From assembly GCF_041381155.1 (NCBI RefSeq), contig NC_091146.1, forward strand, positions 3,145,733 to 3,209,732: a stretch of 64,000 bases of DNA, read 5' to 3'. The translations under genes were made by a program, and so were the position numbers. Below are positions 5,661 through 54,600 of the stretch, one piece after another (position 1 is the stretch's first letter; each line of letters begins with the position of its first letter). The DNA comes from Argopecten irradians (lineage: Eukaryota > Mollusca > Bivalvia > Pectinida > Pectinidae). A model generated the notes under the pieces. That model was not told the origin of the DNA and ran no database searches. It was given only the letters and a program-made list of their open reading frames with translations.

Positions 5661-6233
5661 GACTTGGATGGCATTTTTGGATCTTGATGCAGATCAAGTT
5701 AAGAGTAATGGGACTTCGCAGTGGCAAAATGTCAATTATAATTGTTATACTCATGACTTATATTCCAGAATAACCATATGTAAAGTTTATATTTATGAGA
5801 TCCATTTATAACTTCGATTTCGACGCCTGCGTGCTTTTTTATATTCTGACTGCAGGGCTATCTGGACAGTTAATTACAACAATTTTGACCTAAAGATTAA
5901 TGACTGATGTTAATAATGATAAACTGATCGTAAAAATTTCAAAGAGAACAATAAATCTGGACGTTTTAAGTATGCTAACTTTTTTACTGAGGATGACTTT
6001 AAGTTAATATATTCTGTTACTAAACATTATTCTACGAGAAGGATATAATTTATTTTACAGTATAGGAACATCGAATGTATTATCTGTCAATTAATACAAA
6101 TTACTACGATACTTACAATTAATCCTTCTCTCCATTACACCCACAAAAAAATTTACCCCTTAATATATCAAACAGACTTGATAGAGAGAAAATAAACCGT
6201 CGAGTTGTCCCCCCTGTGTAAACTACTGACTAA
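5661..6233. other. Interruption between two blocks of the 71-bp satellite
   Basis: Mostly non-repetitive AT-rich sequence with scraps of the 71-bp unit (for example around 5935-5970). No coding exon, RNA gene or transposon end was recognised. It may be a collapsed or poorly resolved part of the array. Confidence 0.6.
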
Positions 6234-8291: not shown

Positions 8292-8477
8292 ATTGTAAGG
8301 CAGCCCAGATCTTCATATACAAGAAAACGAAGCCATTGTATTGACTGTACAATGTCTTATAATCAAAAGTGAAAGATTTGGGTACTGAAACATAATAACT
8401 TTGTATATATACTTATTATTTAAGAATGGTAGGCTTTTATTGAATCTGAAGTCAATCAATGAATAGGAATATGATAG

Positions 8478-8901: not shown

Positions 8902-8960
8902 TCACGTGATGTCGTTGTACGCTTCGTTTCCTGTGGTCATTTTCAGGTCTGCGTCGGTGT
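8902..8960 (-). CDS. Gene 1 exon 16: terminal tail exon ending in a tyrosine motif
   Basis: The acceptor tttgtag is followed by a phase-1 entry and 18 codons: TDADLKMTTGNEAYNDIT, then TGA at 8904-8902. The protein therefore ends with a tyrosine in the context EAYNDIT, a YxxI motif at the extreme C-terminus. The phase matches the donors of all upstream tail exons. It is too short to be found by length alone; support comes from the acceptor, the phase and the tyrosine motif shared in style with the cassettes upstream. Confidence 0.65.
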
Positions 8961-8998
8961 CTACAAATTAAAACAAGTAAAATAAAACATGAATCACC

Positions 8999-9187
8999 TA
9001 TTCCGAATTTGCATATTACAGAGTTATCTGCCCTTGCGGGTAGGTATTGATTGTGACGTCATATGTTTGGGAGAGTAACGTCATACGTTTCGGAGAAAAC
9101 GACGTGAATTGCGCTCACAAAATAATGACGTTACAATCTATACCTACCCGCAAGGGAGCTTACTCTGTAATATGCAAAGACGGAATA
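8999..9187. mobile_element. MITE family A, copy 1 (complete)
   Basis: Long terminal inverted repeats: tttgcatattacagag on the left is mirrored by ctctgtaatatgcaaa on the right, and the symmetry continues inward through cccttgcgggtaggtat and its complement. About 189 bp, with no coding capacity. Related copies lie at 13906-14070, 59318-59483 and 62801-62855, so this is a dispersed non-autonomous DNA transposon. This copy sits directly upstream of the terminal exon of gene 1, inside the last intron. Confidence 0.85.
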
Positions 9188-9267
9188 TTCGTTTTTCAGT
9201 AAGTCTACATAGACACGCGATAGGTGGTTATGTCATATGATGAATTAATCTAAAACAGACTAATATC

Positions 9268-9345
9268 ATTTGGGTAATCGGGTGGTGTAGTGGTTAAGCC
9301 GCTCGCCTTTCACTTAATTCCAGGTTAGAGCCTTTCACCTTACAT
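9268..9345 (+). mobile_element. Possible tRNA-derived SINE head fragment
   Basis: The stretch ggtggtgtagtggttaagcc resembles a tRNA A box, and ccaggttagagcc about 35 bp later resembles a degraded B box. No full tRNA fold or SINE tail is visible. Most likely an eroded SINE head. Confidence 0.4.
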
Positions 9346-9793
9346 AATTCCTGTCATAAACACTGAAACAATTATCTCCTATTGTTTTAAAGAGAACGAA
9401 GGAGTGTTTTCATTTAAATGACTCCTTCATGCAATACTGTTCTATCGTTTAAACGTTTCTGTCTAAATCTGAGCACGTTGGTTATTTCTAAATGTCATTA
9501 TACTTACATTTCAACTTTCCAAAGATCATTGATTTTTATCATATAAGTGTTCAGGGTCTAAAACATAATTTTAATATTTGATTTAAACATATACAGTGAT
9601 ATAAAAAAATTGTGATTTTATTTGACCACACTTAATAGGTTAACAAAACATTATTAAAACTTGGTGGTATGTATTATATATACTTGAAAGAAATAAAGAA
9701 GACAGACAGAAAGAAATCAACTAAAACCAATTCCTAAAATTCAGTAACCAAATATAGCATTACTATTATGAATTAAACAAACCCTATATGTAC

Positions 9794-9853
9794 CTGTGGT
9801 TTGATACAGATCCTGATACTTCCGGCCATCTTCTGTTGTATTCTCATCACCGA
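9794..9853 (-). CDS. Gene 1 exon 15: tyrosine cassette C4 (YQDL)
   Basis: A 60-bp cassette in phase 1 at both ends, acceptor acacaag and donor G|gtacat. It encodes GDENTTEDGRKYQDLYQTT. The YQDLYQTT end aligns with YLELYQSA of cassette C1 (13778-13837), and the overall layout matches C2 and C3. YQDL is a YxxL motif; the residue two before the tyrosine is Arg, so it is not a strict ITIM. A second tyrosine follows at +4. Likely cytoplasmic. Confidence 0.72.
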
Positions 9854-10039
9854 CTTGTGTATAAAAAGGATAACATACTAAATATATATTTCTCCAAATC
9901 AGTAAGTTATAATACTATAAATAACATCATTTAATCATGTAAATGACGATCATCTTCATTGGCTTAAATCAATGTTATCATTATATAATTATTATAGTCT
10001 AAATTAACGACGCCATTTGAAGCGTCGACTTTGATGGGT

Positions 10040-10212
10040 TTGATTCACCATGTTTGATGATAGAGGAAAACCGCAGTACCCGGAGAAAAACCACAGACCA
10101 GCTTTCGTTACCTGGCAACTGCCCTACATGGGATTCAAACTAGCGACACAAAGGTGAAAGGATTGTGGTAATATGTCGGGACATCTTAACCACTCGGCCA
10201 CCATGGCCCCTG
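10040..10212 (-). mobile_element. tRNA-derived SINE, family 1 (minus strand)
   Basis: On the minus strand the element begins with a class II tRNA-like head: A box tggccgagtggttaag, then B box agtttgaatcc. The body follows with gggcagttgccaggta and a tttctccgggta region. The same body is seen at 50975-51172 and 52146-52356. It lacks the 3' tail seen in the 52-kb copy, so it is truncated. It lies in the intron between cassettes C3 and C4. Confidence 0.8.
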
Positions 10213-10329
10213 ATAGAGACTAGAACACTGACACACCAGAAAGTGTCCCGCTCAATGTGCCTTATGGTTAGAAAAATAATATCTTCATAATGAAGTTAAA
10301 GAGGTTCACTTGATGACAAATCTTGAAAG

Positions 10330-10810
10330 TAACTGATGACTGTATAGTACTAGAGGTCCCTGTGCGATATTGGCACCTACCAACGATCTACATTTGTTTG
10401 TCTAAAAATGGAAAGAGGGATGCTTTTTGTGCTTACAAAACTTTAAATATCAAAATCCAATATGACTGCCTGTTGGCTATTATGATGATGGATCGGTCTC
10501 AAAATGCAATATGCACAACTAAGGTCCTAGGGGGACCTACAATTACAACTTGTGAAAGATGCCTTCAGTACTTTATGAGAAACAGCGGCTACAAACTTCA
10601 ACTATCAAAATCCAAGATGGCTGACTGGTGTTCATCTTGCTAACCAATCAGTAACAGACTTTAGCCGTTCGATTATGTTGTTGACCGATCCGTCACAAAA
10701 TGTAATATGCACAACTAGAGCCTAGGGGAACCTTATATATGGAATTCGAGGCAAATACTTGCAGTACTATCTGAGAAATCGTAGTAACAAGAAAACGGAC
10801 AGACGGACAA
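10330..10810. repeat. Two diverged copies of a ~190-bp module
   Basis: Two segments, beginning near 10481 and 10674, share the order: tatgatgatg-like lead, aatatgcacaact, a cctaggggaacct-like block, then cagtactttatgagaaa-like sequence. The open frame at 10323-10643 falls mostly on the first module and has no recognisable domain, so I do not call it a gene. The unit looks like a fragment of a repetitive element of unknown class. Confidence 0.55.
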
Positions 10811-10954
10811 TCGACATTGCGCAAAACCAATATTAATCTTAGTATAATTCATGAGCAACTGAAACATGTTCAGTAGTTTCATTGAATCAAATTAAGATGG
10901 AGACTTGAATATTAGGATATTAAAGTAAACCAGTGAGCATTCAAAAACGGAGAG

Positions 10955-11180
10955 AGAAAAATAAGTTAAAGTGATACCATCTCGATATTCGTGAGTTTAC
11001 GACCACAGTCGTTATATCCACCTCTGGACTACGCCATAGAAAAACTGAATGTTATACGCGACAACAGGGTGCGACTAATATTAGAATCGGAAATGACAAC
11101 AAAGCGAAATACATAGAATGGGTGTAGGATTACAGATACACAACAAATATCATGGACAATGCCGTAGTGCACATGATGGG
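10955..11180 (+). repeat. Dispersed repeat R2, copy 1
   Basis: Aligns by eye, with gaps, to 22275-22427 and 23175-23420. The shared order is tctcgatattc, a ctcctgga or ctctggacta block, a catagaaaaact-like block, acaacagg, actaatattagaa, then cggaaa. Diverged but collinear over more than 150 bp. Probably an old transposon family; no ends or coding region were recognised. Confidence 0.6.
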
Positions 11181-11492
11181 AACACTGACCGATCACAGGC
11201 ATTCAAATATGAACCAAGGTTTTCTTATATTTTTGTATTAGAAGTCATATATAGGCTATAAGGCATCGGTTTCTAATGGCAAGCAAATTGCCTCATCTAA
11301 ATTAAGATCAAACCAATCTATTTCACGTCGCCTAGGTAACATTTTAGATTAAGGAATGTTCTTTTTAAACATGTTAAGTTTATCAAAAAAAAGAAGTTTT
11401 GATAATGTTGATAAAACCCGGCAACATTATCAATCTCATTTTAATTGGAATGTTTTGTGTAGTATTATCCCTTTAATAAGACTGATATATAG

Positions 11493-11642
11493 AGAATACA
11501 TGGTTAGTATCTTACAATACAAGGTTTATTTTGGTGCGAGACTTAGGAAAGCCGAGATGACGAGGCTTTGCCGAGTCATCTTGGCTTTCCGTGTCGAGCA
11601 CCAAAATAAAACTTGTATTGTAAGATACTAACCGTGTATTCT
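11493..11642. mobile_element. Fold-back element 1 (long palindrome)
   Basis: Nearly perfect inverted repeat of about 70 bp per arm: gttagtatcttacaatacaa at the left is mirrored by ttgtattgtaagatactaac at the right, with a short loop at gaggctttgcc. Transcribed, it would form one long hairpin. Arm mismatches are few, so it is probably young. Typical of fold-back MITEs; a hairpin small-RNA source is a weaker alternative. Confidence 0.85.
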
Positions 11643-12158
11643 GTTTATCCTGCAACAATTATGGCATTCAAAACGAAAGCAAATTGACAGTTCCTTACTT
11701 TGTTTCGCTCGAAGCGAGACGCTTCTTTGATGCGGAGGTAAAGATTCATTCACTTAACCGAATGAGAGTGTACTCCTTTTTACTGCCGTGTGGGAAATAA
11801 ATAAGCGCATTCACAAACAGTAACCGTAATTCTATTCAGTGAATATACTCAAATAACAATAAATACCCATTAAAGAATTACTTAACAATACATACCTTTG
11901 TCATGAGCCAAGAAAAAGACGACACAGCCATACGAGATTTTCGATATCTTAAAAATGACGTCATTTCGGTGAATGTGACGTCACGTTTTAGCGGACGACT
12001 GAATGACGTTTCATTCACCGGAAGGTTCAAGTTCAGGGTCAAGTTAGAAAAGTTCCGTCAGATATGGAACAAATTCACGTGATCGTATTGACGGATAAAG
12101 CACAAGTTTATCTGGCAGTAGTTATCGGTCAGTATGTGGGACAGTTGCAGGATAAATA
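11643..12158. mobile_element. Possible non-autonomous element with 13-bp inverted ends
   Basis: tttatcctgcaac near 11645 is mirrored by gttgcaggataaa near 12146. The interior has no recognised coding sequence and contains several gacgtcat palindromes. The left end directly abuts fold-back element 1. Whether the two belong to one composite element is unclear. Confidence 0.45.
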
Positions 12159-12159
12159 T

Positions 12160-12190
12160 ATATATACCTGTGGATTCATATCTATAATAA
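12160..12190 (-). pseudogene. Remnant of a fifth tyrosine cassette
   Basis: On the minus strand gatatgaatccacag|gtatat matches the 3' end and donor of cassettes C2 and C3 (DMNQS followed by G|gtatat). The 5' part of the exon and its acceptor are missing. Fold-back element 2 lies between this remnant and the intact cassette at 12339-12398. It records a further duplication in the tail-exon series, now broken. Confidence 0.55.
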
Positions 12191-12214
12191 AACGTCGAGG
12201 TATGAAACAAATAT

Positions 12215-12326
12215 ACTCTTTCATAAGTGGATATGAAGGATAAGGATATTATACCCTCGGGATCACAAAATGTAGTAAAACCTCGGGTAGTATATCCCTA
12301 TCCGTCATATCCACGCATGAAAGAGT
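12215..12326. mobile_element. Fold-back element 2
   Basis: Inverted arms actctttcat...gtggatatga...ggata mirrored by tatcc...tcatatccac...atgaaagagt, with a loop of about 20 bp centred near 12270. Arms are imperfect (several mismatches). It lies 12 bp from the donor side of cassette C3. Confidence 0.8.
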
Positions 12327-12338
12327 CTTACAATATAC

Positions 12339-12398
12339 CTGTGGATTGATTCATATCCATGTATTCCTGGTCATCCCCAGTTGCATTCACAGCTGCAC
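12339..12398 (-). CDS. Gene 1 exon 14: tyrosine cassette C3 (YMDM)
   Basis: 60-bp cassette, acceptor attag and donor G|gtatat, phase 1 at both ends. It encodes AAVNATGDDQEYMDMNQST. YMDM is a close match to the YxxM motif that binds the SH2 domains of the PI3-kinase p85 subunit in known receptors. Nearly the same motif and flank (YMDMNQSK) occur in the next cassette upstream, so the two are recent sister duplicates. Confidence 0.75.
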
Positions 12399-12770
12399 CT
12401 AATACATAAACAAATGGCTAGAATGTAGAGCTATGATAAGCGTTGTGGTGAAACTAACAACGCAGACATCATTTATTTTTGTATAACACAAGCAAAGAAA
12501 TGAATCGATCACTTTTTAAAAAATCTCAAACGCCGCAATTTATTACGCCGATTCTGATTAACCTATGCAATGGCGTTAAGATTTCTGAGAAAAACAACAT
12601 AACGTTATTTTAACATGTTTAGTGTTTTTTATGCCATTGATAACAAGTCAATACTTGTTATAAAAACGTTTTTCTTCAAGAAATTGTCTGCTTTTGCGCG
12701 GTGTTTTTTTCTTCTAATTCATTAATAATGACATGTACTTAATATTGATAGTATGAATCAAACAAACTAT

Positions 12771-13197
12771 ATAGGGAACAACCATCTAAATAAAAAAGAC
12801 CTTCGAAATGGCCCCTGTGTATATAAGATTGAGCCCAGGATAGAATTTTAACCCGGCCGCTGATTGACTGGCTAATTATGAATTTCAAAAGTAAATATGT
12901 TTTGTGACAGGTAATTATTCCTAGGTAGCCATGATATGAATTTGGAAATTCATTTTGAAATTTAAGGATTTGTTAGTGCAAAATGCACCTGATTTCAAAA
13001 TACCTACCCTGGTTGGAGTTTGAGCAGAAGGACCCAAATTTTTTTTCTATCTAGTGTTATATGAGAACCTACATGTAGACTTTAATTATAGAACACAATA
13101 GCCAACTAATATTCCTTTGTCTTAATAATACAGTACAAAACTTTAACAAAGTTTAACACTGTGGTCTATGTAAAATTATGATGTGGTTGTTCCCTAT
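12771..13197. mobile_element. MITE family C, copy 1
   Basis: Terminal inverted repeats tagggaacaacca (left) and tggttgttccctat (right), about 427 bp apart. No coding capacity. A collinear fragment of the interior (ctaccctggttgga, aggacc, atctatctagtg) occurs at 27330-27465, so this is a dispersed family. It fills most of the intron between cassettes C2 and C3. Confidence 0.75.
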
Positions 13198-13226
13198 AGG
13201 GCAAAGAACAAACCATACATATATAC

Positions 13227-13283
13227 CTTTAGATTGATTCATATCCATGTACCCGTTATCTTGTATCGTATTATCAGTGGTAC
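13227..13283 (-). CDS. Gene 1 exon 13: tyrosine cassette C2 (YMDM)
   Basis: 57-bp cassette, one codon shorter than its sisters; acceptor cattag and donor G|gtatat, phase 1 both sides. It encodes TTDNTIQDNGYMDMNQSK. The YxxM motif is intact. A one-codon length difference with preserved frame argues for selection on coding content. Confidence 0.75.
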
Positions 13284-13777
13284 CTAATGTGTAGATAAAG
13301 ACTCACACGTTAAGGTATATTCTCTCTAGAGGTCTGTGATAGAACTAGAATAAAGTAGATTTCGGTTGAACGTATTATGTATACAATTACAAATTCAGAA
13401 AAGAATATCCAGAAAGCATTACATCATCAAAATGTCCGAATTTTACATATTTTTATATCTTTCATTGTCACTGAATTATGTCCCTTGGCCTATGGCGGTA
13501 CAGTTGCATATATGTCAATATTTACATTTTGACAGTTTTATTTTACCGGAACATTAAGTTAAAAATAAAAAGTCATTTGGAATATGCAATTGACACACCA
13601 GTAAACAACAACAAATTAAAGTTTTTCCTTAAGCATTCCCTACGTATTCCGTGTGTTGTTGATTACCGATCATTGAATGAAATAATCCAACTGATATTCA
13701 TACTTAAACATACATAACTACTGTTGGATTCATGAGCCTTTAACACTATTAGTATGAGCCAAATTAACCATATATAC

Positions 13778-13837
13778 CTGCGGATTGATACAACTCTAGA
13801 TACTCCCGGTCATCTTTGTTAGCGTTCTCAGTGGCAC
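13778..13837 (-). CDS. Gene 1 exon 12: tyrosine cassette C1 (YLEL)
   Basis: 60-bp cassette, acceptor gcattag and donor G|gtatat, phase 1 both sides. It encodes ATENANKDDREYLELYQSA. YLEL is a YxxL motif and a second tyrosine follows four residues later, as in C4. It is the first of four C cassettes, and lies downstream of an intron of about 7 kb that consists almost wholly of satellite. Confidence 0.75.
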
Positions 13838-13905
13838 CTAATGCATAGAAAATGTTGAAAGTACTGCAACACGAACAAACTTAATTTTGTTGTGCTAATT
13901 ATAAA

Positions 13906-14070
13906 TTTGTATAATTCAGAGTTATGTGCGTTAATGGGTAGGTATTTATTGTAACGTTTCAAAGTTCAGGGCGTAAGGTTTTACTTTAAGAGAATATAAT
14001 GCGAGTTTCACTCACAGACTTATGACGTTTCAATGGATACCTCCCCGCATGGGAGGTAACTCTGTAATGT
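13906..14070. mobile_element. MITE family A, copy 2
   Basis: Same ends and layout as 8999-9187 (cagagttatgtgcg ... gggtaggtat ... ggatacctccccgcatggg ... taactctgtaatg), but more diverged. It lies between cassette C1 and the 55-bp satellite. Confidence 0.75.
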
Positions 14071-14174
14071 CTACTTGGAGTTCACTGATAAACTTTAAAT
14101 GTTATTCTTCTTTTTATGTTTCCATCGGCAGACTTCAAACATTTATTTTGATTTAGATTTTTGAATAAGAAATT

Positions 14175-16830
14175 AAAATATTACTCATCGCCCTTAACAC
14201 AAACAATATATTTTGTTACAACATTGGTATATACTTCATCGCTCTTAACAAAAATTTATCACCAGCAACCAGTGGATTCATTGGTATATGACTCATCGCT
14301 CTTAACAAAACAGAGTTACAACATTGGTATATACTCATCGCTCTTAACAAAACAATATTTCACAGCAACCAGTTACAACATTGGTATATTTCGCTCTTAA
14401 CAAAAAAATTTCACAGCAACATTGGTAGTTATCGCTCTTAACAAAAATATGGTATTAACAACACAGCTTACAATATTGGTATATACTCATCGCTCTTAAC
14501 AAAAATATATCACAGCAAACCAGTTACAACATTGGTATATACTCATCGCTCTTAACAAAAATATATCACAGCAACCAGTTACAACATTGGTATATACTCA
14601 TCGCTCTTAACAAAAAATATATATCACAGCAACCAGTTACAACATTGGTATATACTCATCGCTCTTAACAAAAAATATATCACAGCAAACCAGTTACAAC
14701 ATTGGTATATACTCATCGCTTCTTAACAAAAAATATATCACGCTCTTAACATCACAGCAACAGTTACAACATTGGTATATACTCATCGCTCTTAACAAAA
14801 ATATATCACAGCAACCAGTTACAACATTGGTATATACTCATCGCTCTTAACAAAAAATATATCACAGCAACCAGTTACAACATTGGTATATACTCATCGC
14901 TCTTAACAAAAATATATCACAGCAACCAGTTACAACATTGGTATATACTCATCGCTCTTAACAAAACAATATATCACAGCAACCAGTTACAACATTGGTA
15001 TATACTCATCGCTCTTAACAAAAATATATCACAGCAACCAGTTACAACATTGGTATATACTCATCGCTCTTAACAAAAATATATCACAGCAACCAGTATA
15101 TAACACAACCAGTTACAACATTGGTATATACTCATCGCTCTTAACAAAACAATATATCACAGCAACCAGTTACAACATTGGTATATACTCATCGCTCTTA
15201 ACAAAAAATATATCACAGCAACCAGTTACAACATTGGTATATACTCATCGCTCTTAACAAAAAAATATATCACAGCAACCAGTTACAACATTGGTATATA
15301 CTCATCGCTCTTAACAAAACAATATATCACAGCAACCAGTTACAACATTGGTATATACTCATCATCGCTCTTAACAAAAATATATCACAGCAACCAGTTA
15401 CAACATTGGTATATACTCATCGCTCTTAACAAAAATATATCACAGCAACCAGTTACAACATTGGTATATACTCATCGCTCTTAACAAAACAATATATCAC
15501 AGCAACCAGTTACAACATTGGTATATACTCATCGCTCTTAACAAAACAATATATCACAGCAACCAGTTACAACATTGGTATATACTCATCGCTCTTAACA
15601 AAAAAATATATCACAGCAACCAGTTACAACATTGGTATATACTCATCGCTCTTAACAAAAATATATCACAGCAACCAGTTACAACATTGGTATATACTCA
15701 TCGCTCTTAACAAAAAATATATCACAGCAACCAGTTACAACATTGGTATATAATCATCGCTCTTAACAAAACAATATATCACAGCAACCAGTTACAACAT
15801 TGGTATATACTCATCGCTCTTAACAAAACAATATATCACAGCAACCAGTTACAACATTGGTATATACTCATATCGCTCTTTACAAAAACAATATATTCCA
15901 CAGCTAACCAGTTACAACATTTGTATTTACCCATTCGCTCTTATTAACAAAACAATATATCCACAGCATCAAGTTACAACATTGGTATATACTCATCGCT
16001 CTTAACAAAACAATATATCACAGCAACAGTTACAACATTGGTATATACTACATCGATCTTAACAATAACAATATATCACAGCAACCAGTTACAACATTGG
16101 TATATATATCGTTCTTAACAAAAACAATATATCACAGCAAACCAGTTACAACATTTGTATATACTCATCGCTCTTAACATAAAAACAATATATCACAGCA
16201 ACCAGTTACAACAATTTGCGTTTTATATCATCGCTCTTAACAAAACAATATATCACAGCAACCAGTTACAACATTTGTGTTTTATATACTCATAGGCCTT
16301 AACAAAAAAATTTAATCACAGCATACCAGTTACAACCTTTTGGGTATATATCATCGCTCTTAACAAAAAATATATCACAGCAACCCAGTTACAACATTGG
16401 TATATACTCATCGCTCTTAACAAAAAAAAAAATATAACAAAAATTGGTTTACAATATATCACTCAGCTTTCTTAACAAAATATATACAGCACAGTTACAA
16501 CATGGTCATATACTATCGCTCTTAACAAAACAATATATCACAGCAACCAGTTACAATAATTGGTATATACTCATCGCTCTTAACAAAAATATATCACAGC
16601 AACCAGTTACAACATTGGTATATACTCATCGCTCTTAACAAAAAATATATCACAGCAACCAGTTACAACATTGGTATATACTCATCGCTCTTAACAAAAA
16701 ATATATCACAGCAACAGTTACAACATTGGTATATACTCATCGCCTTAACAAAAATAAATCACAGCAACCAGTTACAATATTGGTATATATTCTCATGAAA
16801 GAAAACGGATTTCCATTAACAAAACAATAT
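14175..16830. repeat. 55-57-bp tandem satellite array
   Basis: About 47 copies of a unit containing cagttacaacattggtat then actcatcgctcttaac. The unit ends in an A-run of variable length, which gives 55-57 bp. Both edges (14175-14460 and 15880-16560) are rich in indels and partial units; the middle is clean. It lies wholly within the intron between exons 11 and 12 of gene 1. Confidence 0.96.
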
Positions 16831-16949
16831 ATCACAGTACTAAGAGAGAAAGAGAGGGAGAGTTACAAACAACGTCCTTGTAGTCTATAAATCACGATAT
16901 TCAGAAGCGTTTTACATCAACATCTATATAGTGTTACTAAAATATAGGA

Positions 16950-19900
16950 GATTGAATAATATTAAAGGAAGTTATAGGTACATCATAAACATTAGTAGTG
17001 ACATTAACATTATAGGAATTTATAGGACATTCATAAAAACATAATATGACATTATAGGACATTGACATTATAGGGACATTATAGGACATTATAGGACATC
17101 TTATAGGACATTGATATTATAGGACACATTATAAGGACATCATATGACATTATAGACATTATAGGACATTGACATTATAGGGCATTATAGGACATAAGAC
17201 AGCATTATAGGACATTATAGGACATTATAGTACAGGAACATCATAAGACCATTATAGGACATTAACGACATTATAGGACATTCATATGACATTATAGGAC
17301 ATTATACGGACAGTCAACTAGGACATTATAGGGATCATTATAGGACATCAAAACATTATAGGACATTATTAGACATTATAGGACATTAGACATTATAGTA
17401 CACATAAGACATTATGAGGACATTAACATTATAGGACATTATAGGACACCATAAGACATTATAGGACATTTAACATTATAGGGACATTATAGGACATTAA
17501 CATTATAGGACATTATAGGACATTATTGGACATTATAGGGACATTATAGGACATTAACATTATAGGACATTATAGGACATTATAGGACATTAACATTATA
17601 GGACATTATAGTACATTAACATATAGGACATTATAGGACATTTATAGGACATTAACATTATAGGACATTATAGGACATCATAAGACATTATAGGACATAA
17701 TAGGAACACCATAAGACATTATAGGGACATTATAGGACATTAACATATAGGACATTTATAGGACATATAACATTATAGGACATTATAGGACATCATAAGA
17801 CATTATAGGACATTATAGGACATCATAAGACATTATAGGACATTATAGGACATCATAAGACATTATAGGACATTATATGACATTAGGACATTTTAAGACA
17901 TTATAGGACATTAACATTATAGGACATTATAGGAACATTAACATTATAGGACATTATAGGACATTAACATTATAGGACATTATAGGACATTTAAGGACAT
18001 TATAAGACATTATAGGACATCATAAGACATTATAGGACATTATAGGACATCATAAGACATTATAGGACATCATAAGACATTATAGGACATTATAGGACAT
18101 CATAAGACATTATAGGACATCATTAGACATTATAGGACATCATAAGACATTATAGGACATTATAGGACATCATAAGACATTATAGGACATTATAGGACAT
18201 CATAAGACATTATAGGACATCATAAGACATTATAGGACATTATAGGACATCATAAGACATTATAGGACATCATAAGACATTATAGGACATTATAGGACAT
18301 CATAAGACATTATAGGACATCATAAGACATTATTAGGACATTAAACATTATAGGACATTATAGGACACCATAAGACATTATAGGACATAACATTATAGAC
18401 ATTATATAGTAGGACAATATGGACATTATAGGACATTATAGGACATCATAAGACATTATAGGACATCATTAGACATTATAGGACATCATTAGACATTATA
18501 GGACATCATAAAGACATTATAGGACATCATTAGACATTATAGGACATTCATATAGACATTATAGGACATCATTAGACATTATAGGACATCATTAGACATT
18601 ATAGGACATCATTAGACATTATAGGACATCATAAGACATTATAGGACATCATAAGACATTATAGGACATCATAAGACATTATAGGACATTATAGGACATC
18701 ATAAGACATTATAGGACATCATAAGACATTATAGGACATTATAGGACATCATAAGACATTATAGGACATCATAAGACATTATAGGACATTATAGGACATC
18801 ATTAGACATTATAGGACATCATTAGACATTATAGGACATCATTAGGACATTATAGGACATCATTAAGACATTATAGGACATCATTAGACATTATAGGACA
18901 TCATTAGACATTATAGGACATCATTAGACATTATAGGACATCATTATAGACATCATAGACATTATAGGACATCATTAGACATTATAGGACATCATTAGAC
19001 ATTATAGGACATCATTAGACATTATAGGACATCATTAGACATTATAGGACATCATAGACATTATAGGACATCATTAGACATTATAGGACATCATTAGACA
19101 TTATAGGACATCATTAGACATTATAGGACATCATTAGACATTATAGGACATCATTAGACATTATAGGACATCATTAGACATTATAGGACATCATTAGACA
19201 TTATAGGACATCATATAGGACATTATAGGACATTATAGGACATTATAGGACATCATAAGACATTATAGGACATCATAAGACATTATAGGACATTATAGGA
19301 CATCATAAGACATCATAAGACATTATAGGACATCATAAGACATTATAGGACATCATAAGACATTATAGGACATTATAGGACATCATAGGACATCATAAGA
19401 CATTATAGGACATCATAAGACATTATAGGACATTATAGGACATCATAAGACATTATAGGACATCATAAGACATTATAGGACATCATAAGACATTATAGGA
19501 CATTATAGGACATTATAGGACATCATTAGACATTATAGGACATCATTAGACATTATAGGACATCATTAGACATTATAGGACATCATTAGACATTATAGGA
19601 CATCATTAAGACATTATAGGACAATCATTATAGGACATCATTAAGGACATCATTAGACATTATAGGACATCATATAGGACATATAAGACATCATAAGACA
19701 TTATAGGACATCATAAGACATTATAGGACATTATAGGACATCATAAGACATTATAGGACATTATAGGACATCATTAGACATTATAGGACATTATAGGACA
19801 CATAAGAACATTATAGGACATCATTAGGACATTATAGGACATCATAAGACATTATAGGACATCATTAGACATTATAGGACATCATTAGACATTATAGGAC

Positions 19901-20716
19901 ATCATTAGACATTATAGGACATCATAAGACATTATAGGACATCATAAGACATCATAAGACATTATAGGACATCATAAGACATCATAAGACATTATAGGAC
20001 ATTATTAGACATTATAGGACATCATTAGACATTATAGGACATCATCATTAGACATTATAGGACATCATAAGACATTATAGGACATCATTAGACATTATAG
20101 GACATCATTAGACATTATAGGACATCCAAGACATTATAGGACACATTAGACATTATAGGACATCATAAGACATTATAGGACATCATTAGACATTATAGGA
20201 CATCATATAGGACACATATAATATAGGACATAACATTATAGGACATTATAGGACATCATTATAGGACATTATAGGACATCATTAGACATTATAGGACATC
20301 ATTAGACATTATAGGACATCATTAGACATTATAGGACATCATTAGACATTATAGGACATCATTAGACATTATAGGACATCATTAGACATTATAGGACATC
20401 ATTAGACATTATAGGACATCATTAGACATTATAGGACATCATAAGACATTATAGGACATCATAAGACATTATAGGACATCATAAGACATCATAAGACATT
20501 ATAGGACATCATAAGACATTATAGGACATCATAGGACATTATAGGACATCATAAGACATTATAGGACATCATAAGACATTATAGGACATCATTAGACATT
20601 ATAGGACATCATAAGACATTATAGGACATCATAAGACATTATAGGACATCATAGGACATCATAAGACATCATAAGACATTATAGGACATCATAAGACATC
20701 ATAAGACATTATAGGA
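16950..20716. repeat. 10/20-bp tandem satellite (gacattatag family)
   Basis: The basic unit is the decamer gacattatag. Most of the array is a 20-bp dimer made of that decamer plus gacatcataa or gacatcatta. The left 1 kb is dominated by monomers and irregular spacing, the right by dimers. catcataa and catcatta variants occur in separate runs (for example catcatta at roughly 18430-19200), showing local homogenisation. It lies in the same gene 1 intron as the 55-bp satellite. Confidence 0.96.
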
Positions 20717-20911
20717 CAGTTAGCTCCATTACAATCTTTTCCATTTTTTGCTATCAATATATTTTTTTATATTCATAGTCCAGCAAGATTACTTTAAAAG
20801 AGAAAACAAATATAAAGGGAAAAATTCACTAAAATGTTGATATTCACTGCAATAAATAATGATATAAAAGAAGCATTACAAAATTAAATGAAATAATAGT
20901 AATAAACTCAC

Positions 20912-21010
20912 GTTCGTCGCTCCCCGTTTGAGGTGCATGTTTTGATACTGTAGTTGGAACATTCTCCCTCCTCACCTCTCCGTCCGCTGAAGCATACACG
21001 TGGTAAGGAT
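20912..21010 (-). CDS. Gene 1 exon 11: tail exon B2
   Basis: 99-bp exon, acceptor atttacag, donor C|gtgagt, phase 1 both sides. It begins (D)PYHVYASADGEVRR and continues polar to GSDE. It is clearly homologous to exon 9 (24422-24517, PYHLYASAEVRR), and the flanking introns are also alike. The conserved feature is PYH(V/L)YAS with two tyrosines three residues apart. No named domain is recognised; a cytoplasmic linker with phosphorylatable tyrosines is inferred. Confidence 0.75.
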
Positions 21011-21329
21011 CTGTAAATATGACAAGACATCTTTAGTTGTCGTATTGTTTAGTACCTACACATGATTTTATTTTCTCCAGATAATTTACTATCATATAAT
21101 TTTCCCATCAAAGCTATTAATTTATTTCAGATATTTTCTTTCAAATTATTAAAATATACGTATGATTATCGTAGTCTTAGACTTTTCAAAAATATTTAAA
21201 AACGATTCAATTTGAAAACAAAACAAGGAATTGCTATTTTTTATTAAAAATAAAAGATGATTAAAAAAACAAGATGTAAGAAAAAAGTTAGCGTTGGTGA
21301 CTAGATATCTAAAACAAAAGATAATATGC

Positions 21330-21407
21330 CCTTCACATCTTGTGAATTAGTAATGTCTTTGAGTTCGTGGGTTCTGGCAGTGATTGTATTTTCACTATTT
21401 TTCTGTT
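21330..21407 (-). CDS. Gene 1 exon 10: tail exon A2, followed by a GC donor
   Basis: 78-bp exon with acceptor atttaacag. It encodes QKNSENTITARTHELKD followed by ITNSQDVK, and aligns with exon 8 (24893-24970) over its whole length without gaps. The donor reads AAGG|gcatat where exon 8 has AAGG|gtaaat. This is a GC donor without the strong flanking consensus usual for GC-AG introns, so splicing here may be weak, regulated or lost. The exon contains no tyrosine. Confidence 0.65.
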
Positions 21408-21729
21408 CTGTTAAATATATTGCAAAATTATATTATATCATAAACTTAAATGTATATATTTTTATTGCTTTTAAAATCTCGCCATTGATGGGCTGATTAA
21501 CGGCGTAACGATTTTGAAAAAGGTGTATTTCAGGCAAATTGAAATTTCACATTATAGAATTAAATAAATTGAATAAAAAATGTACATTTGTATGGATGAT
21601 CTTTAACACAAATAGCAACAATAATGTTAACAGCGATACTCTCTTTTTGGCACATTACAAAATAATCTTGAGAATAATTATCGATTGAAATGCCAATGTC
21701 TTTATGCAAACATTCCGTTATTTTTCTAT

Positions 21730-22068
21730 TTAAAGATATGACCTTTATATTTAAAAACGATTCAATTTGCCATTAAAAGTTGCAAAAGTTATTAACTATC
21801 CATCCTCATCATAAAAAGAAATAATTAAAATACATTAAATGTTAATTTTCATAACGCGGATCGTCCTAAATATCGCGCGTTAGTTGACTATCACTCCGCC
21901 AGACGGCAAAAGAGCGAAATAATTTCAGTAGTTATCATATATGACGCAGGAAATCTTGAATTTGTTCGGTGTTGTTACCTCATCTTAGGCTATAAATATG
22001 CATTTTATGATATTATTAATGTTTTTATGAAACCTTTAACTTTTACTAATTTGGTAGTAGGCCTTTAA
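21730..22068. mobile_element. MITE family B, copy 1 (TTAA-flanked)
   Basis: Begins ttaaagatatgaccttta and ends ggtagtaggcctttaa. TTAA at both ends suggests piggyBac-type target use. The interior contains agacggcaaaa next to tagttgactatcac, shared with the copies at 28643-29012 (opposite orientation) and 63598-64000. No coding capacity. Confidence 0.75.
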
Positions 22069-22429
22069 CGCCATAATTGCATCACTAATACCTTTAATGT
22101 TGAGATATGGTGCATACAAAGGAACAAATACTTTACTGGTGTATTGTTTAAGATTCACCGTATGTCATGAAAGATTTTCGTCCTTTTTATTATCCAAAAT
22201 CAATTAATTCCTGTCTTATAAGTTTTCAGTACGCAGCTTTGGGACGATTGCATAGAATGTTTTAAAAATAAATCAATAAAGCAGAAAAATAAAATGTTTA
22301 AAGTGAAAGTTATCTCGATATTCCAGAGTTAATATTTATGTCTTTTAATTCACTCCTGGATTATGTTATAGGGAAACCAAAACTTAAGATTTTCTGTAAC
22401 AACAGGACTAGTATTAGAACCGGAAAGGA
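22033..22429. repeat. Left copy of a ~395-bp local duplication
   Basis: From near gctaatttggtagtag to attagaaccggaaagg this segment recurs almost unchanged 898 bp downstream (22931-23327). The copies differ at only a few positions near the start (for example attgcatca/attgaatca and atgttgag/atgcagag). The left copy runs straight into satellite at ggacattatagg; the right copy continues into single-copy sequence (ggagaacaaattc). Confidence 0.9.
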
Positions 22430-22931
22430 CATTATAGGACATCATAAGACATTATAGGACATCATAAGACATTATAGGACATCATATGACATTATAGGAC
22501 ATCATGACATTATAGGACATTATAGGACATCATAAGACATTATAGGACATTATAGGACATTATAGGACATCATAAGACATTATAGGACATCATAAGACAT
22601 TATAGGACATCATTAGACATTATAGGACATCATTAGACATTATAGGACATCATTAGACATTATAGGACATCATAAGACATTATAGGACATCATTAGACAT
22701 TATAGGACATCATTAGACATTATAGGACATCATTAGACATTATAGGACATCATTAGACATTATAGGACATCCTAAGACATTATAGGACATCATAAGATAG
22801 GACATCATAAGACATTATAGGACATTATAAGACATTATAGGACATTATAGGACATCATAAGACATTATAGGACATTATAGGACATCATAAGACATTATAG
22901 GACATTAACATTATAGGACATTATAGGACAT
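22427..22931. repeat. Island of the 10/20-bp satellite inside the local duplication
   Basis: About 500 bp of the same gacattatag/gacatcataa satellite as 16950-20716, separated from it by 1.7 kb that includes two exons. It lies exactly between the two ~395-bp duplicate segments. Confidence 0.93.
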
Positions 22932-23327
22932 CTAAAACTTTTGCTAATTTGGTAGTAGGCCTTTAACGCCATAATTGAATCACTAATACCTTTAATGCAG
23001 AGATATGGTGCATACAAAGGAACAAATACTTTACTGGTGTATTGTTTAAGATTCACCGTATGTCATGAAAGATTTTCGTCCTTTTTATTATCCAAAATCA
23101 ATTAATTCCTGTCTTATAAGTTTTCAGTACGCAGCTTTGGGACGATTGCATAGAATGTTTTAAAAATAAATCAATAAAGCAGAAAAATAAAATGTTTAAA
23201 GTGAAAGTTATCTCGATATTCCAGAGTTAATATTTATGTCTTTTAATTCACTCCTGGATTATGTTATAGGGAAACCAAAACTTAAGATTTTCTGTAACAA
23301 CAGGACTAGTATTAGAACCGGAAAGGA
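22931..23327. repeat. Right copy of the ~395-bp local duplication
   Basis: Near-identical to 22033-22429. It includes the right end of MITE B and a copy of repeat R2 (from about 23175), which continues to about 23500 in this copy only. Confidence 0.9.
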
Positions 23328-24421
23328 GAACAAATTCGGATCAGAATATATTAAATGAATGTAGGATAAAAAATACATAAAAACCATGCTACACAATCGA
23401 TTATGTCGTAGTGCTCCATCCCCGATACTCCAGGGGTTACTATCATTGATATTATATTCACCCCTGGACTATATCATAGTAAAACTGGAGGCAACAAAAC
23501 AGTACGGGTAATTTAGTGATTTGGTGTATTAAAAGAACCGTATAACGGTACGCTGTGGTTGACTGTGTACTTTAAGATAGGCGTGGATCTCTCTGTAGTC
23601 TTAAAAGGAAATCTTTGAACACCTTTGATTGGTTCAGATTTTTTTCTTCAGGGTTGCCCTCAGTTTTACTATGAGATAGTCCAGGGGTAGACATACCGTC
23701 AACGTTAGTAACCTCTGGAGTTTTGAGGACGTCATTCAGCCAGAAATCTCTTAAGTAAAAAATAAAGTTTCGGTATTCATAATTTACCAGATGTAGGGGG
23801 TACCGGCAGAAATCGCTTGTACGAGGGTTGAATCGCTTTTTACGAGGGGCATGGGGGAGGGGGTTGACACAGAGAGGAGAATTATCGCATTTCAAAACGG
23901 AAACATCAGCAGAATTTGGCTGATATCTTGTGCCGAGGAACGTAGAACGTAAATGTATTTTTCGGAATCATGGACATCGTAATTATCCATCCATACCCGG
24001 CTCAATTAATTTAAAAGACAGAAAATGTTAAAACTGATTCTCCGATAACGAGGGTAGGGAGTGGAGGTCGCTTGCAATTATAGTATTATGAGGGGGGAGG
24101 CTCGCTTCAACCTACCAGTAGAAGATGTTTCAGCACCCAACATTAACGACTTTGAACAGGGGCTGTATAATAATTTGAAGCATCAGGATATATTATTTAA
24201 CTATAAGGCTATTGCACCACAACTAGAACATGGACTTTAACCATTATAAGTATACTTTATGAGTCCGGTGAAGAGAAACTATATAGTTCATGTACATGGA
24301 TTTCTTTATAATTTATATTTGACAGAAAAGTTTCTGCTGAATGTAATGTGACATTCACTGCAATAATATATTGTATATGGGAAGCATTCAACAATTGATG
24401 AAATAATAGTAATTAACTCAC
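23328..24421. other. Intron without recognised genes
   Basis: Contains the continuation of repeat R2 (to about 23500) and otherwise unremarkable sequence. A 107-codon open frame on the minus strand (23572-23895) has no recognisable domain, no splice context fitting gene 1, and an unusual number of basic and proline residues. I do not call it a gene. Confidence 0.5.
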
Positions 24422-24517
24422 GTTTGTCGGTCTCCGTATGAGGTCCCTGTTTTGCTACTGTAGTAATTAAAACACTCCCCCTCCTTACCTCTGCTGAAGC
24501 ATACAAGTGGTATGGAT
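24422..24517 (-). CDS. Gene 1 exon 9: tail exon B1
   Basis: 96-bp exon, acceptor atttacag, donor C|gtgagt, phase 1 both sides. It begins (D)PYHLYASAEVRRG and ends HTETDK. Homologous to exon 11 (PYHVYASADGEVRR), one codon shorter. The two exons also share their 3' intron sequence (gaaataatagtaa then aactcacgtt on the plus strand), which shows duplication of a genomic segment, not of the exon alone. Confidence 0.75.
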
Positions 24518-24892
24518 CTGTAAATATGATTATTTATATTAGATACATTAAGGTTCTTCTAAATCAGAGACTAAATCAATTCACCAGGGAATGTTAGGGG
24601 AGATTACATAATCATCATCCAATTGACCTTCGGACCGTTTCCGAATACAATTGTTTTTCATATCATATATTATGGTTATAATGTCTTATTATAATATAAG
24701 TACTTTAAATATTTAAAGTAGCATGCATAATAATTTTTCATTTTTGATCATATAGCAACATTTCTTTATCAAAAGCTACGAAAAAATAAAATAAGAAAAC
24801 ACCATGATTTAAAAAAAAGTAATTTGAAAACAACAAAATGCAAGCAAAAAATAGTATTAGTTAATATATATTCAAAACCGAAGATAATTTAC

Positions 24893-24970
24893 CCTTCATA
24901 TCTTCAGGACTAGCATTGTCTTGGAGTTTTCGGTTTCTGGCAGAAATTGCAGTTAGACCATTTTGCTGTC
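24893..24970 (-). CDS. Gene 1 exon 8: tail exon A1
   Basis: 78-bp exon, acceptor atttaacag, donor G|gtaaat, phase 1 both sides. It encodes QQNGLTAISARNRKLQD then NASPEDMK. Homologous in length and sequence to exon 10. It directly follows the transmembrane exon, so it is the juxtamembrane part of the tail. Polar, no tyrosine; function unknown. Confidence 0.75.
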
Positions 24971-25024
24971 CTGTTAAATGTATTGTGATATTAATAATAC
25001 AATTTAACAAAGGATGACAATTTA

Positions 25025-25130
25025 TTGATTATTACTCGTGCACTACCCGGGGCTCGATCTCACGATCTACAGCACCCAATCTCCTAGTCAAACATACCCG
25101 GGCCTTTTACCACCGCGCCACATCCACTTC
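25025..25130 (-). mobile_element. tRNA-derived SINE fragment
   Basis: On the minus strand, tggcgcggtggtaaaaggc (A box-like) is followed by gagatcgagccccgg (B box-like) at tRNA spacing. Flanks show no long SINE body. A different head from families 1 and 2. Probably a SINE remnant rather than a tRNA gene, since no full cloverleaf is evident. Confidence 0.6.
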
Positions 25131-25405
25131 CCCCAAAAAGGACGTTTCAATGATAACTTGATAGTCGGTTCGACATGCTGACATGATCATGGGTTCGTGT
25201 CTTCTGATTAGCTAATGAATTTATGATAATTAATATATAAGAGAAAAGAGTGCGAATATTATTTAATTTTGTCTGGGAAGATTCTATTGTAAGGAATTCA
25301 AACAATGCCTGAAACGGGGTAGAAAAACAACAACAACAACAGGAAATGAAAGAAAAACATAATAAGACATTTTGCATCATGTTACGAACATGTGTTTGTT
25401 TTTAC

Positions 25406-25496
25406 CTTCACCAGTGCGCTGTCTTCTGATTACTAAGAAAAGGCCAATAATCGTCAAAGTCAGAATACCAACAACACAGCCAGACATGCAGATATC
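25406..25496 (-). CDS. Gene 1 exon 7: transmembrane segment
   Basis: Reading back from the donor GAAG|gtaaaa, the frame gives SGCVVGILTLTIIGLFLVI followed by RRQRTGE: one hydrophobic span then a basic stop-transfer stretch, as in type I receptors. Phase 1 at the 3' end fits exon 8. The 5' end is uncertain. The plus strand has no CT (hence the minus strand has no AG acceptor) from here to about 25774, because the five 50-bp repeats lie immediately upstream. The reading frame itself meets a stop inside the repeats. Either the acceptor was lost in the repeat expansion, or the assembly is wrong here, or the intron end is non-canonical. The start given is the last codon I trust. Confidence 0.65.
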
Positions 25497-25733
25497 AATA
25501 CATAGATACATCACAGGTGTACATTTCGGTTCGACATGCAGATATCAATACATAGATACATCACAGGTGTACATTTCGGTTCGACATGCAGATATCAATA
25601 CATAGATACATCACAGGTGTACATTTCGGTTCGACATGCAGATATCAATACATAGATACATCACAGGTGTACATTTCGGTTCGACATGCAGATATCAATA
25701 CATAGATACATCACAGGTGTACATTTAGATAGG
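25484..25733. repeat. Five tandem 50-bp repeats at the edge of the transmembrane exon
   Basis: Copies start at 25484, 25534, 25584, 25634 and 25684, and are essentially identical (acatgcagatatcaatacat, then agatacatcacaggtg). The first copy overlaps the start of the transmembrane coding frame. Identity implies a very recent expansion or an assembly duplication. Confidence 0.95.
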
Positions 25734-27522: not shown

Positions 27523-27804
27523 CTTCTGTGCGAATTTTGAATGTGACGGTCAGCATCTTCCCTACGCCGTTACTGATGTTAACGTGACTGTGGATGTATC
27601 CCTCCGCGGACGTGATCAGGACGGATCCCTGGACAGTATATGTATAGCTGTTATTCTGTACTATAGACGTATCCATCACACCAGTAGACCATCGTATAGT
27701 GGGTGACGGGTTCGCAATCACAATTGCATCAAGTGGAATTGCCTGGCCTCTCTTTCCCGTCAATCTAATTATACTGTCACACGAATACCTTCTGCGGGGT
27801 GTAC
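27523..27804 (-). CDS. Gene 1 exon 6: Ig-like domain 4 (membrane-proximal)
   Basis: 282-bp exon, acceptor catcttcag, donor GAAG|gtaaaa, phase 1 both sides, 93 full codons. Ig-like features include NPSPTIRWSTG (strand B-C region with the core Trp) and a HVNISNGVG turn followed by a terminal strand KMLTVTFKI. The usual disulphide pair is not present; the only visible Cys is near the start (RRYSC). Similar in layout to membrane-proximal domains of Ig adhesion proteins. NNS and NIS are possible N-glycosylation sites. Confidence 0.8.
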
Positions 27805-28045: not shown

Positions 28046-28363
28046 ATGTGACCTGAAGTCCAAACCGTATCTCGGAAGGATTCTGAGTGACTGCATTGCT
28101 CGCTATGACGTCATAGGTCCCTGTGTCGTCACACTGGAGATTGTCTAATACCAAGTCATATCCTCCAGTAACACCATTGATATCTGTCCACGTGATCACG
28201 TGATTGTGACGTATTAGGGTGACGTTAGGATTTGGGTTACTGTCTACCTCAACATTGAGTACCAGACTATCAGCCTCATGGAGTCTGATGACGTCATTAG
28301 GGATGACAGGGCGCAGTTCCTCAGTTTCATTTTGGTACCTTAGTTTTGTGATTCGGGCAGGAA
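28046..28363 (-). CDS. Gene 1 exon 5: Ig-like domain 3, disulphide residues replaced
   Basis: 318-bp exon, donor ACAT|gtaagt, phase 1 both sides, 105 codons. I-set-like pattern: SLVLNVEVDSNPNPNVTL around strands B-C, WTDINGV, then LQCDDTGTYDVIASNAV, which is the DxGxYxCxAxN motif with Val where Cys normally sits. The B-strand position is also not Cys (LNV). Loss at both positions fits a stable, selected disulphide-free fold rather than random decay. Two NVT/NET-type glycosylation sites are visible. Confidence 0.85.
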
Positions 28364-29259: not shown

Positions 29260-29574
29260 AGCGAGGTTTTAGAACGAACTCGGCACTGTCCTCTGAGGGT
29301 GGCCCGCTGTACCCTTCTGTCGCCTCTCTCGTCTGACAGGTAAACATGTTGTACCTGTCCCTCATAAGTACTGGAGTGATAACGAGGCTTGTGTCCTTGA
29401 CATTAAACCTAGTGTCGGTAATAGAACTTCCGTTAAGTTTCCATGTGGACGTCATCCTCAAGCCGTGGTTGTCCGGCTTACTTCGTGATACTGACGATGC
29501 ACACTCTAGATCTACAGTCTCGTTAACAAGAGGCAAAGTCTCGGAGGATGTAATTGTCGGCACTGTCGGTGTGT
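29260..29574 (-). CDS. Gene 1 exon 4: Ig domain 2 (canonical)
   Basis: 315-bp exon, acceptor attttcag, donor CGCT|gtgagt, phase 1 both sides, 104 codons. Canonical Ig landmarks: VDLECASSVS (B-strand Cys), TSTWKLNGS (core Trp), SLVITPVLMRDRYNMFTCQT (F-strand Cys), and a G strand AEFVLKP. NES/NGS-type glycosylation sites are present. It is the domain with the clearest match to gene 2 (62033-62683): RSKPDNHGLRM against QSKPINHGLEM, and WKLNGS against WTLNGS. Confidence 0.9.
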
Positions 29575-32894: not shown

Positions 32895-33179
32895 CAGTAA
32901 CGACTATAAGAGTCCCTCCCAGTACAATATCTCCAGATATTATTTTAGTGTAGTAATACCCAGCATGTGTCACGTGTGTACTGTCTATCTCCAGTTCAGC
33001 GTACTCTGATGCGAGACGGACACTTACACCGTCCTCCGTGGTATTGTCTCCGTCAATTTCTCCGTAAAGGAATTGGTAAAGGGTCCTTGTGTTAAGGGCA
33101 ACGACAGATATTGCCGTGTTGGGTGGCTTAGGCAGCATTAACCTCGTAATATCACCTTCACTTATGTAAGTAGCAGGAT
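32895..33179 (-). CDS. Gene 1 exon 3: V-like Ig domain without cysteines
   Basis: 285-bp exon, acceptor acaatag, donor ACTG|gtaagt, phase 1 both sides, 94 codons. The end pattern DSTHVTHAGYYYTKI is the Ig DxGxYxC signature with Tyr replacing Cys; it is followed by a G strand GTLIVVTG. There is no cysteine in the domain. The gene 2 counterpart (61071-61373) has the same replacement (TTRDAGYYYIER) and ends LLVVTG. The shared loss shows the disulphide-free state predates the duplication of the two genes. Confidence 0.85.
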
Positions 33180-33537: not shown

Positions 33538-33816
33538 CCGTGGTTATATTTACCATGACTGAGCCACTGACTATGCCATTAATCAGTGTTGATACTTTGA
33601 TCGTGTAGGCCGTGTCTGGTTTGATATCGCTGAATCTATACACATATATATCTGGTGACAGATAGTCGAAATCCGTAGATTTTCCTGCTTCAGTAACCAT
33701 GACAAAGTACTGAGAAATCCGCAGTCCGGGTAAAACATCGGGACTGTCCCATGTTACTATGATGGTACCGTCCGCTATGTATACCGCCGACAGGTCAACC
33801 GGAGGAACGGATTGTT
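33538..33816 (-). CDS. Gene 1 exon 2: N-terminal fibronectin type III domain
   Basis: 279-bp exon, acceptor tttgccag, donor ACGG|gtaagt, phase 1 both sides, 92 codons. FN3 landmarks: PPVDLSAVYIADGTIIVTW (A-B strands with core Trp), RISQYFVMV (strand C), and IKPDTAYTIKVSTLI (E-F strands with the conserved Leu/Tyr-type corner). It directly follows the signal peptide, so it would be the outermost domain. Closely parallel to gene 2 exon 2 (VNLTAEYIANGSIRVTW). Confidence 0.9.
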
Positions 33817-36504: not shown

Positions 36505-36562
36505 CTTGACATGACGTCGTACAAACAAGCATAAATGACAGCAGGACCTTGAAGGCCGCCAT
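36505..36562 (-). CDS. Gene 1 exon 1: start codon and signal peptide
   Basis: ATG at 36562-36560 in the context catcATGG (strong), coding MAAFKVLLSFMLVCTTSCQ, then donor G|gtagga in phase 1. It has the hydrophobic core and small residues of a signal peptide. Gene 2 exon 1 (53258-53315) is exactly the same length, 58 bp, with the same phase. The 5' leader contains upstream ATGs (near 36726-36721) that open a 76-codon frame running past the start, which could reduce translation. Confidence 0.85.
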
Positions 36563-36764: not shown

Positions 36765-36792
36765 CGACAATTCCATCCGCACACTAATCATC

Positions 36793-53257: not shown

Positions 53258-53315
53258 ATGGCGGATGGCTGGAAAATTGTGGTGTTTGTGATTATTTCTT
53301 TACCAACAAGCCTTG
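53258..53315 (+). CDS. Gene 2 exon 1: start codon and signal peptide
   Basis: ATG in the context gatATGG, coding MADGWKIVVFVIISLPTSL, then donor G|gtatgt in phase 1. 58 bp, the same length and phase as gene 1 exon 1, with a hydrophobic core VVFVIISL. The next coding exon (59648) continues in frame with an FN3 domain, as in gene 1. No clear core promoter was identified upstream. Confidence 0.8.
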
Positions 53316-53394
53316 GTATGTATGTGTTCTTACCATCCCAACTTTCATGTGTCTACTTTCCTTTTGTTGTTATTTCACTTTCTATTTTTACTGA

Positions 53395-54445: not shown

Positions 54446-54600
54446 CGACATAACATAAATGATGTCAATCATTTGAACAATAATTGGTGTTTAATCGTCT
54501 ATATATATGTCTAATTAACACAAAATATGATATAAAATAATTAATTTCGTCTTTGGTGCATGTGCAATCAGTACTTCATTCCATATAGGATATAGTGTCA
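54446..54600 (+). repeat. Dispersed repeat R1, copy 2
   Basis: Collinear with 35256-35408 (caataattggtgtttaatcg, atatatatgtct, tttggtgcatg, caatcagtact), roughly 80% alike by eye. Class unknown. Confidence 0.75.

Follow-up and report, generated by a model that had tools for sequence, protein, structure and literature searches.

Gene 1, on the minus strand of a 64,000-nucleotide stretch of the Argopecten irradians genome (C13:3145733-3209732; hereafter the window, in whose numbering gene 1 positions are given), belongs in the reading that we favor to a family of FN3/Ig receptors, carries a tail built from duplicated cassette exons, and has been split by a short tandem array into a secreted ectodomain and a separately transcribed tail. 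We hold this reading with about as much confidence as doubt. Its exon anatomy, the missing splice acceptor of its transmembrane exon and the exact match of both of its halves to NCBI proteins are direct observations.

The two halves of gene 1 and the break between them

Our gene 1 model was built from splice sites read off the sequence, with a hypothetical start for the transmembrane exon. In order, its exons encode a signal peptide (36505..36562, phase 0-1), an FN3 domain (33538..33816), four Ig-like domains (32895..33179, 29260..29574, 28046..28363 and 27523..27804), a transmembrane segment and the tail exons A1, B1, A2, B2, C1, C2, C3, C4 and T. Pfam placed the Ig domains above its cut-off (the third Ig-like exon as I-set/Ig_3) and fn3 just below it, at 24.4 bits for a cut-off of 25; the first Ig-like exon has relatives in P0001, P0003 and P0008. 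All 15 introns, those of the ectodomain included, are phase 1. AG acceptors are present at 14 of the 15, the exception being the transmembrane exon, and GT donors likewise at 14, the exception being A2, which has GC (G|GCATAT).

Two annotated NCBI proteins can be rebuilt exactly from these exons. P0002 (515 amino acids) consists of the six ectodomain exons followed by the residues GIV* from an annotated alternative terminal exon (coding part 25298..25308, the sole fitting GIV* site on the window's minus strand), which is spliced to the fourth Ig-like exon; it has neither the transmembrane exon nor the tail. P0011 (156 amino acids, named isoform X1) starts at an ATG at 24899, inside A1, continues through B1-B2-C1-C2-C3-C4, and ends in an exon that we call T' (coding part 9526..9557, DPEHLYDKNQ*). 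Neither protein holds ectodomain and tail together, and none combining the two was found among the matches of three protein searches, which cover proteins 0.55-1.75 times the query length that share words with the query.

The break itself lies in the transmembrane exon. Its surviving 3′ part (SGCVVGILTLTIIGLFLVIRRQRTGE; 25406..25484) has a GT donor and no AG acceptor; followed backward, the open frame runs into a stop at 25544 before any AG is reached. In place of the acceptor and the first third of the exon there is a 50-bp tandem array (25483..25726; TRF, 100% matches) of 4.9 copies without a mismatch, four of them full and identical. Similarity to P0001, the product of a paralogous gene (gene P, described below), is clear from 25484 (86% across 86 bases) and stops at the start of the array. 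The paralogue's transmembrane exon is about 117 bases long with a normal acceptor (cttcatctgcag), and about 38 of those bases, a third, have no gene 1 counterpart. By eye the array unit might be a diverged copy of the lost exon start; we rejected that idea because the unit showed no detectable similarity to the start of the intact paralogue exon taken together with 63 intron bases (as high a score in 446 of 500 shuffles).

Because the transmembrane exon lacks an AG acceptor, ordinary splicing cannot, as far as the sequence of this assembly tells, join the gene 1 ectodomain to its tail. The best 19-residue hydropathy of the surviving part is still 2.51 (2.75 in the paralogue exon), so that this exon, if ever included, could yield a short transmembrane segment. 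The original prediction had put a transmembrane exon ahead of the tail, with all the tail's docking sites on one receptor; for the assembled copy the first point fails at the acceptor and the open frame, and the second is unsupported, since the annotation has two proteins.

Several observations lead us to the split reading. Both P0002 and P0011 are reproduced exactly from window exons; P0011 starts inside A1, even though a transmembrane exon joined to A1 would have given it an earlier in-frame ATG; the transmembrane open frame has no AG, while the paralogue exon is whole with a normal acceptor and sits, in P0001, between an ectodomain and a cassette tail; and the searches found no protein joining the two halves. 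The sequence of events that we envisage is that the 50-bp array displaced the first third of the transmembrane exon together with its acceptor, that with GT-AG splicing the ectodomain would then end at GIV* as a presumably secreted form, and that the tail exons would be reached only from a separate transcript. Past the GIV* stop, ATTAAA occurs 29 bases on and AATAAA 270 bases on; these could serve a short secreted transcript, although such signals are weak in AT-rich sequence.

Another array was seen in a relative. Where the P0003 FN3 exon ends, and beyond it (L041, C13:36461073-36468263), there is a 72-bp x 100-copy array, reaching the edge of the stretch retrieved, whose unit consists of the FN3 exon end plus the splice donor (98 matches to the junction pattern). 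Judged by its unit, it seems to have spread from the edge of an exon into a series of decoy donors, and it suggests that such arrays recur in the scallop receptor family. The fuller proposal for gene 1, namely a receptor gene split by an exon-edge minisatellite into a secreted ectodomain and an independently transcribed, membrane-free tail in which the number of docking sites varies by cassette inclusion, strikes us as improbable when taken in all its parts.

The tail cassettes

All nine tail exons of the original prediction are present on the minus strand where it had put them, open in frame, with AG acceptors at nine of nine and GT donors at seven of the eight non-terminal units. Six of the nine, together with the end of A1 (24893..24970, in which P0011 translation begins), match P0011 letter for letter: B1 (24422..24517, DPYHLYASA), B2 (20912..21010), C1 (13778..13837), C2 (13227..13283), C3 (12339..12398) and C4 (9794..9853). 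The other two did not hold up as supported exons. A2 (21330..21407) has the GC donor and is skipped in P0011, and the candidate terminal exon T (8902..8960) is absent from P0011, which ends instead in T', an exon that the prediction had missed; the gene P stretch has no match to T, and its counterpart of T', DPEHLYGF*, stands in the same place. A degraded C copy near 12165-12200, spotted by eye only, was dropped. The tail boundaries are indeed all phase 1, as predicted, and the cassettes are thus frame-neutral. However, every intron of gene 1 is phase 1, so we rejected phase as a special mark of a tail cassette design.

The mechanical signature of such exons is common by chance. AG..GT phase-1 pieces with a Yxx(L/M/I/V) motif number 95 on the gene 1 strand of the region, 68 on the opposite strand, and 37-69 in ten 2-mer shuffles; kinship, not signature, is therefore what establishes the tail exons. 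A1 and A2 are identical at 57 of 78 positions and B1 and B2 at 79 of 93. Their 100-base flanks are 68-80% alike, against a background of 56% (standard deviation 6%), and the A-B introns are 57% identical across the alignment, against 47-51% in eight controls. Because the similarity extends into the flanks and the A-B intron, the A-B pair was probably duplicated as one unit. For the C exons, exon identity was 63-73% and flank identity 53-71% across the six pairwise comparisons, which on DNA alone makes their kinship look weaker than that of A and B. At the protein level, all of C1-C4 carry Y-x-(D/E)-(L/M), as do the paralogue's two C-type exons, and relatives of A, B, C and C4 are all present in gene P. 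We conclude that the duplicated cassettes are real, coding exons.

Ratios of nonsynonymous to synonymous differences (pN/pS) were also calculated, with PA, PC and PC4 denoting the gene P exons. The pairs C1/C2, C1/C3, C2/C3 and C4/PC4 gave 0.39-0.62, which supports our reading of the locus; C3/PC gave 0.51 and C1/PC 0.77, and from pair counts C4 gave about 0.62 against C1 and about 0.67 against C3. The value for the transmembrane exon was 0.76, and that for A1/A2 was 1.80, on 15 synonymous sites only.

As to the motifs, P0011 contains YLEL (C1), two copies of YMDM (C2 and C3) and YQDL (C4), i.e. four YxxM/YxxL motifs, to which the candidate exon T would add YNDI*. The predicted tyrosine motifs of the C cassettes are thus real and coding, and that of the terminal exon lies in T, which P0011 does not include; the tyrosines of B1 and B2 (PYHLYASA and PYHVYASA) had gone unmentioned. 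Neither classical immunoreceptor motif fits. A strict immunoreceptor tyrosine-based inhibitory motif (ITIM), (I/V/L/S)xYxx(L/V/I), occurs 0 times in the gene 1 tail and in P0011 (and twice in the P0003 tail), and we rejected an ITIM tail on that count. The corresponding activation motif (ITAM) consists of two YxxL/I 6-12 residues apart; successive C motifs in P0011 are 15-16 residues apart, and an ITAM tail was rejected as well. Phosphorylated YxxM binds the SH2 domains of the p85 subunit of phosphoinositide 3-kinase (PI3K), a rule for which our literature search gave no paper. The YMDM motifs of C2 and C3 are, by their sequence, putative PI3K docking sites.

We suggest that in this scallop family of FN3/Ig cell-surface receptors the cytoplasmic tail was lengthened as small phase-1 tyrosine exons duplicated. 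In intact family members, kinases would phosphorylate the cassettes and the tail would act as a phosphotyrosine scaffold, on which YMDM cassettes might dock PI3K-type SH2 domains and YxxL/I cassettes others, so that exon duplication would raise the number of docking sites.

The introns and flanks of gene 1 hold large satellite arrays (1-3668, 3867-8292, 14431-16789, 17007-20718, 22426-22931 and 36789-50353), the longest of which has a 42-bp unit across 13.5 kb. The array at 22426-22931 lies between near-identical copies (21991-22425 and 22931-23335), which agree at 388 of 393 aligned positions. A dispersed repeat of up to ~190 bp, self-matching in both orientations (8999-9196, 13906-14068, 59318-59495 and 62808-62870), adjoins exon T and is common to the paralogue locus.

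Gene P and the scallop receptor family

Gene P (C13:18.80 Mb, 18,801,188-18,824,833, minus strand) encodes an ectodomain of the same family as that of gene 1, followed by an intact transmembrane exon and the tail exons A, B, X, C, C4 and T', all phase 1; P0001 thus unites ectodomain, transmembrane segment and cassette tail in one annotated protein. The order A, B, C, C4, T' is the same in both genes, but gene P has one A, one B, two C-type exons and the extra X, whereas gene 1 has the A-B pair twice and four C-type exons. Exon X (QHYSYAYFRDQRQTTLN; L018, C13:18802882-18802932) carries three tyrosines, and no pieces of its peptide were found in the window. Nor was gene P itself found within 100 kb of the window.

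In a search of the scallop's own genome, the gene 1 tail matched nine places in the window; outside it, one match was returned, to gene P, and a weak one (E 4.26). With P0001 as the query, 65 of 76 candidates were scored and 64 matches had E <=10. Ectodomain exons turned up on C13 (3.17, 3.21, 5.56-5.65, 18.80 and 36.47-36.49 Mb), C16 (4.70 Mb) and C316; the matches on C3, C11, C135 and C303 were weak (E >0.02). Tail cassettes of the gene 1 type appeared in this search at gene P and gene 1 only, a count of loci that is a lower bound because 20-residue exons are easily missed.

In the protein search with the gene 1 ectodomain, which scored the 7999 candidates that had the most words in common with the query, 9 of 10 matches were scallop proteins (E <=3.4e-80), P0002 being identical. 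Set beside the scallop FN3/Ig family (P0001, P0003, P0004, P0005 and P0007), gene 1 has the homologous ectodomain and the tyrosine-motif tail, the latter annotated as a separate protein, and it lacks the in-frame transmembrane join (no AG acceptor; P0002 ends in GIV*). The tails of other scallop relatives contain repeated tyrosine motifs that differ in sequence from those of gene 1: YAIVDE in Mizuhopecten P0004, YAVV in P0003, YIPMS in Pecten P0005, P0007 and P0009, and YTALSE in P0009. Scallop receptor tails appear to gain tyrosine docking sites via whole-exon duplication, which would make exon count a tractable case of evolving signalling strength.

A further member of the family, gene 2, lies head to head with gene 1 on the plus strand (53258-64000, continuing to C13:3210825). 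Its Ig4-like exon (L029) has an in-frame stop, and a search of 114 kb at E 1 found no tail cassette related to those of gene 1.

Alternative explanations and known modular tails

Several points weigh against a split gene. The NCBI proteins seem to be computed predictions, and with no acceptor in the reference a model builder would cut even a genuine receptor in two; the array is possibly a haplotype difference or an assembly fault. Among the C cassettes, similarity drops only a little from exon to flank. C2/PC has a pN/pS of 1.85 and C2/C4 one of about 0.97 (from pair counts), and the A and B pairs mostly fall at 0.76-0.93 (B pairs 0.76-0.93; A1/PA 0.82, A2/PA 0.77). With their small site numbers, these comparisons point to a constraint on the gene 1 tail that is weak at best.

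A tentative alternative is that gene 1 is an intact membrane receptor whose alternatively spliced cassettes determine how many SH2 sites, and of which type, it carries, the missing acceptor being a haplotype or assembly fault. The cassettes are, after all, frame-neutral and coding, gene P has such cassettes on a receptor, P0011 skips A2 and bears an isoform X1 label, and of the 10 family proteins found in scallops, 5 are labeled as isoforms (P0001, P0003, P0004, P0007 and P0011). However, the three protein searches returned no protein linking the gene 1 halves, phase 1 is general throughout the gene, and the isoform labels do not tell what the isoforms differ in. The absence of a GT donor in A2 makes its skipping look like the death of the exon rather than regulation. 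Alternative splicing of the gene 1 tail is only hinted at in the annotation, by the skipped A2 and the P0011 label.

We think it unlikely that gene 1 is a decaying duplicate that has lost its transmembrane exon and A2 and whose remainder is heading toward a pseudogene. The broken exon, the lost A2 donor, the high A1/A2 pN/pS of 1.8, the satellite arrays in the introns and the stop in the Ig4 exon of the neighboring gene 2 would all fit such a history, but the remaining exons are open, with AG and GT where needed (six in the ectodomain, seven internal ones in the tail once A2 is set aside, and both T and T'), and both halves are NCBI proteins. That P0011 is a working membrane-free cytosolic phosphotyrosine scaffold, or a decoy competing for SH2 proteins, is very unlikely: it is a separate annotated protein of 156 amino acids with four YxxM/YxxL motifs, but its start codon within A1 may be the remnant of a 5′-truncated model, and it is known as an annotation only. 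The gene 1 locus is also a clear case for testing whether a receptor can pass from membrane-bound to secreted through a tandem array.

In the open-licence literature, judged mostly from listings, we found no publication on this scallop family or on a bivalve cassette tail. The nearest bivalve case is the oyster Ig receptor CgIgIT2, which has a tyrosine-motif tail and occurs mainly in haemolymph; as described, it has five Ig domains, one classic ITAM and no cassette array, unlike gene 1 (PMC11999971). The original prediction knew of no modular intracellular signalling tail of this kind, but such tails are described for shrimp Dscam (PMC6851185) and PECAM-1 (PMC5664058). PECAM-1 is described in a review as having eight alternatively spliced tail exons, with variants lacking exon 14 failing to bind SHP-2 (PMC5664058). 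It has two ITIMs, whereas the gene 1 tail has no strict one, and the likeness drawn here is one of described arrangement.

Arthropod Dscam is a close parallel, being, as reported, an Ig/FN3 receptor with several cytoplasmic exons that can be included or skipped, and with signalling motifs. In Penaeus monodon Dscam, seven cytoplasmic exons are reported to be non-constitutive (skippable), the tail occurs in 384 forms or more, and SH2-binding and ITAM motifs are predicted in it; crustaceans are also described as having a form with no tail, and Daphnia tails can include or exclude ITIM/ITAM (PMC6851185). In the Drosophila endodomain, exons 19 and 23 are given as variable (PMC3364881, PMC5465998). 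The Dscam ectodomain has 10 Ig and 6 FN3 domains, however, and that of gene 1 one FN3-like and four Ig-like exons. Inclusion of tail exons has, by these accounts, been demonstrated by transcripts in Dscam, whereas gene 1 is known from the genome and annotated proteins. Modular spliced tails are therefore already known, and the scallop arrangement is a variant of them, one in which the motif exons, unlike those of the Dscam tail, are duplicates of one another.

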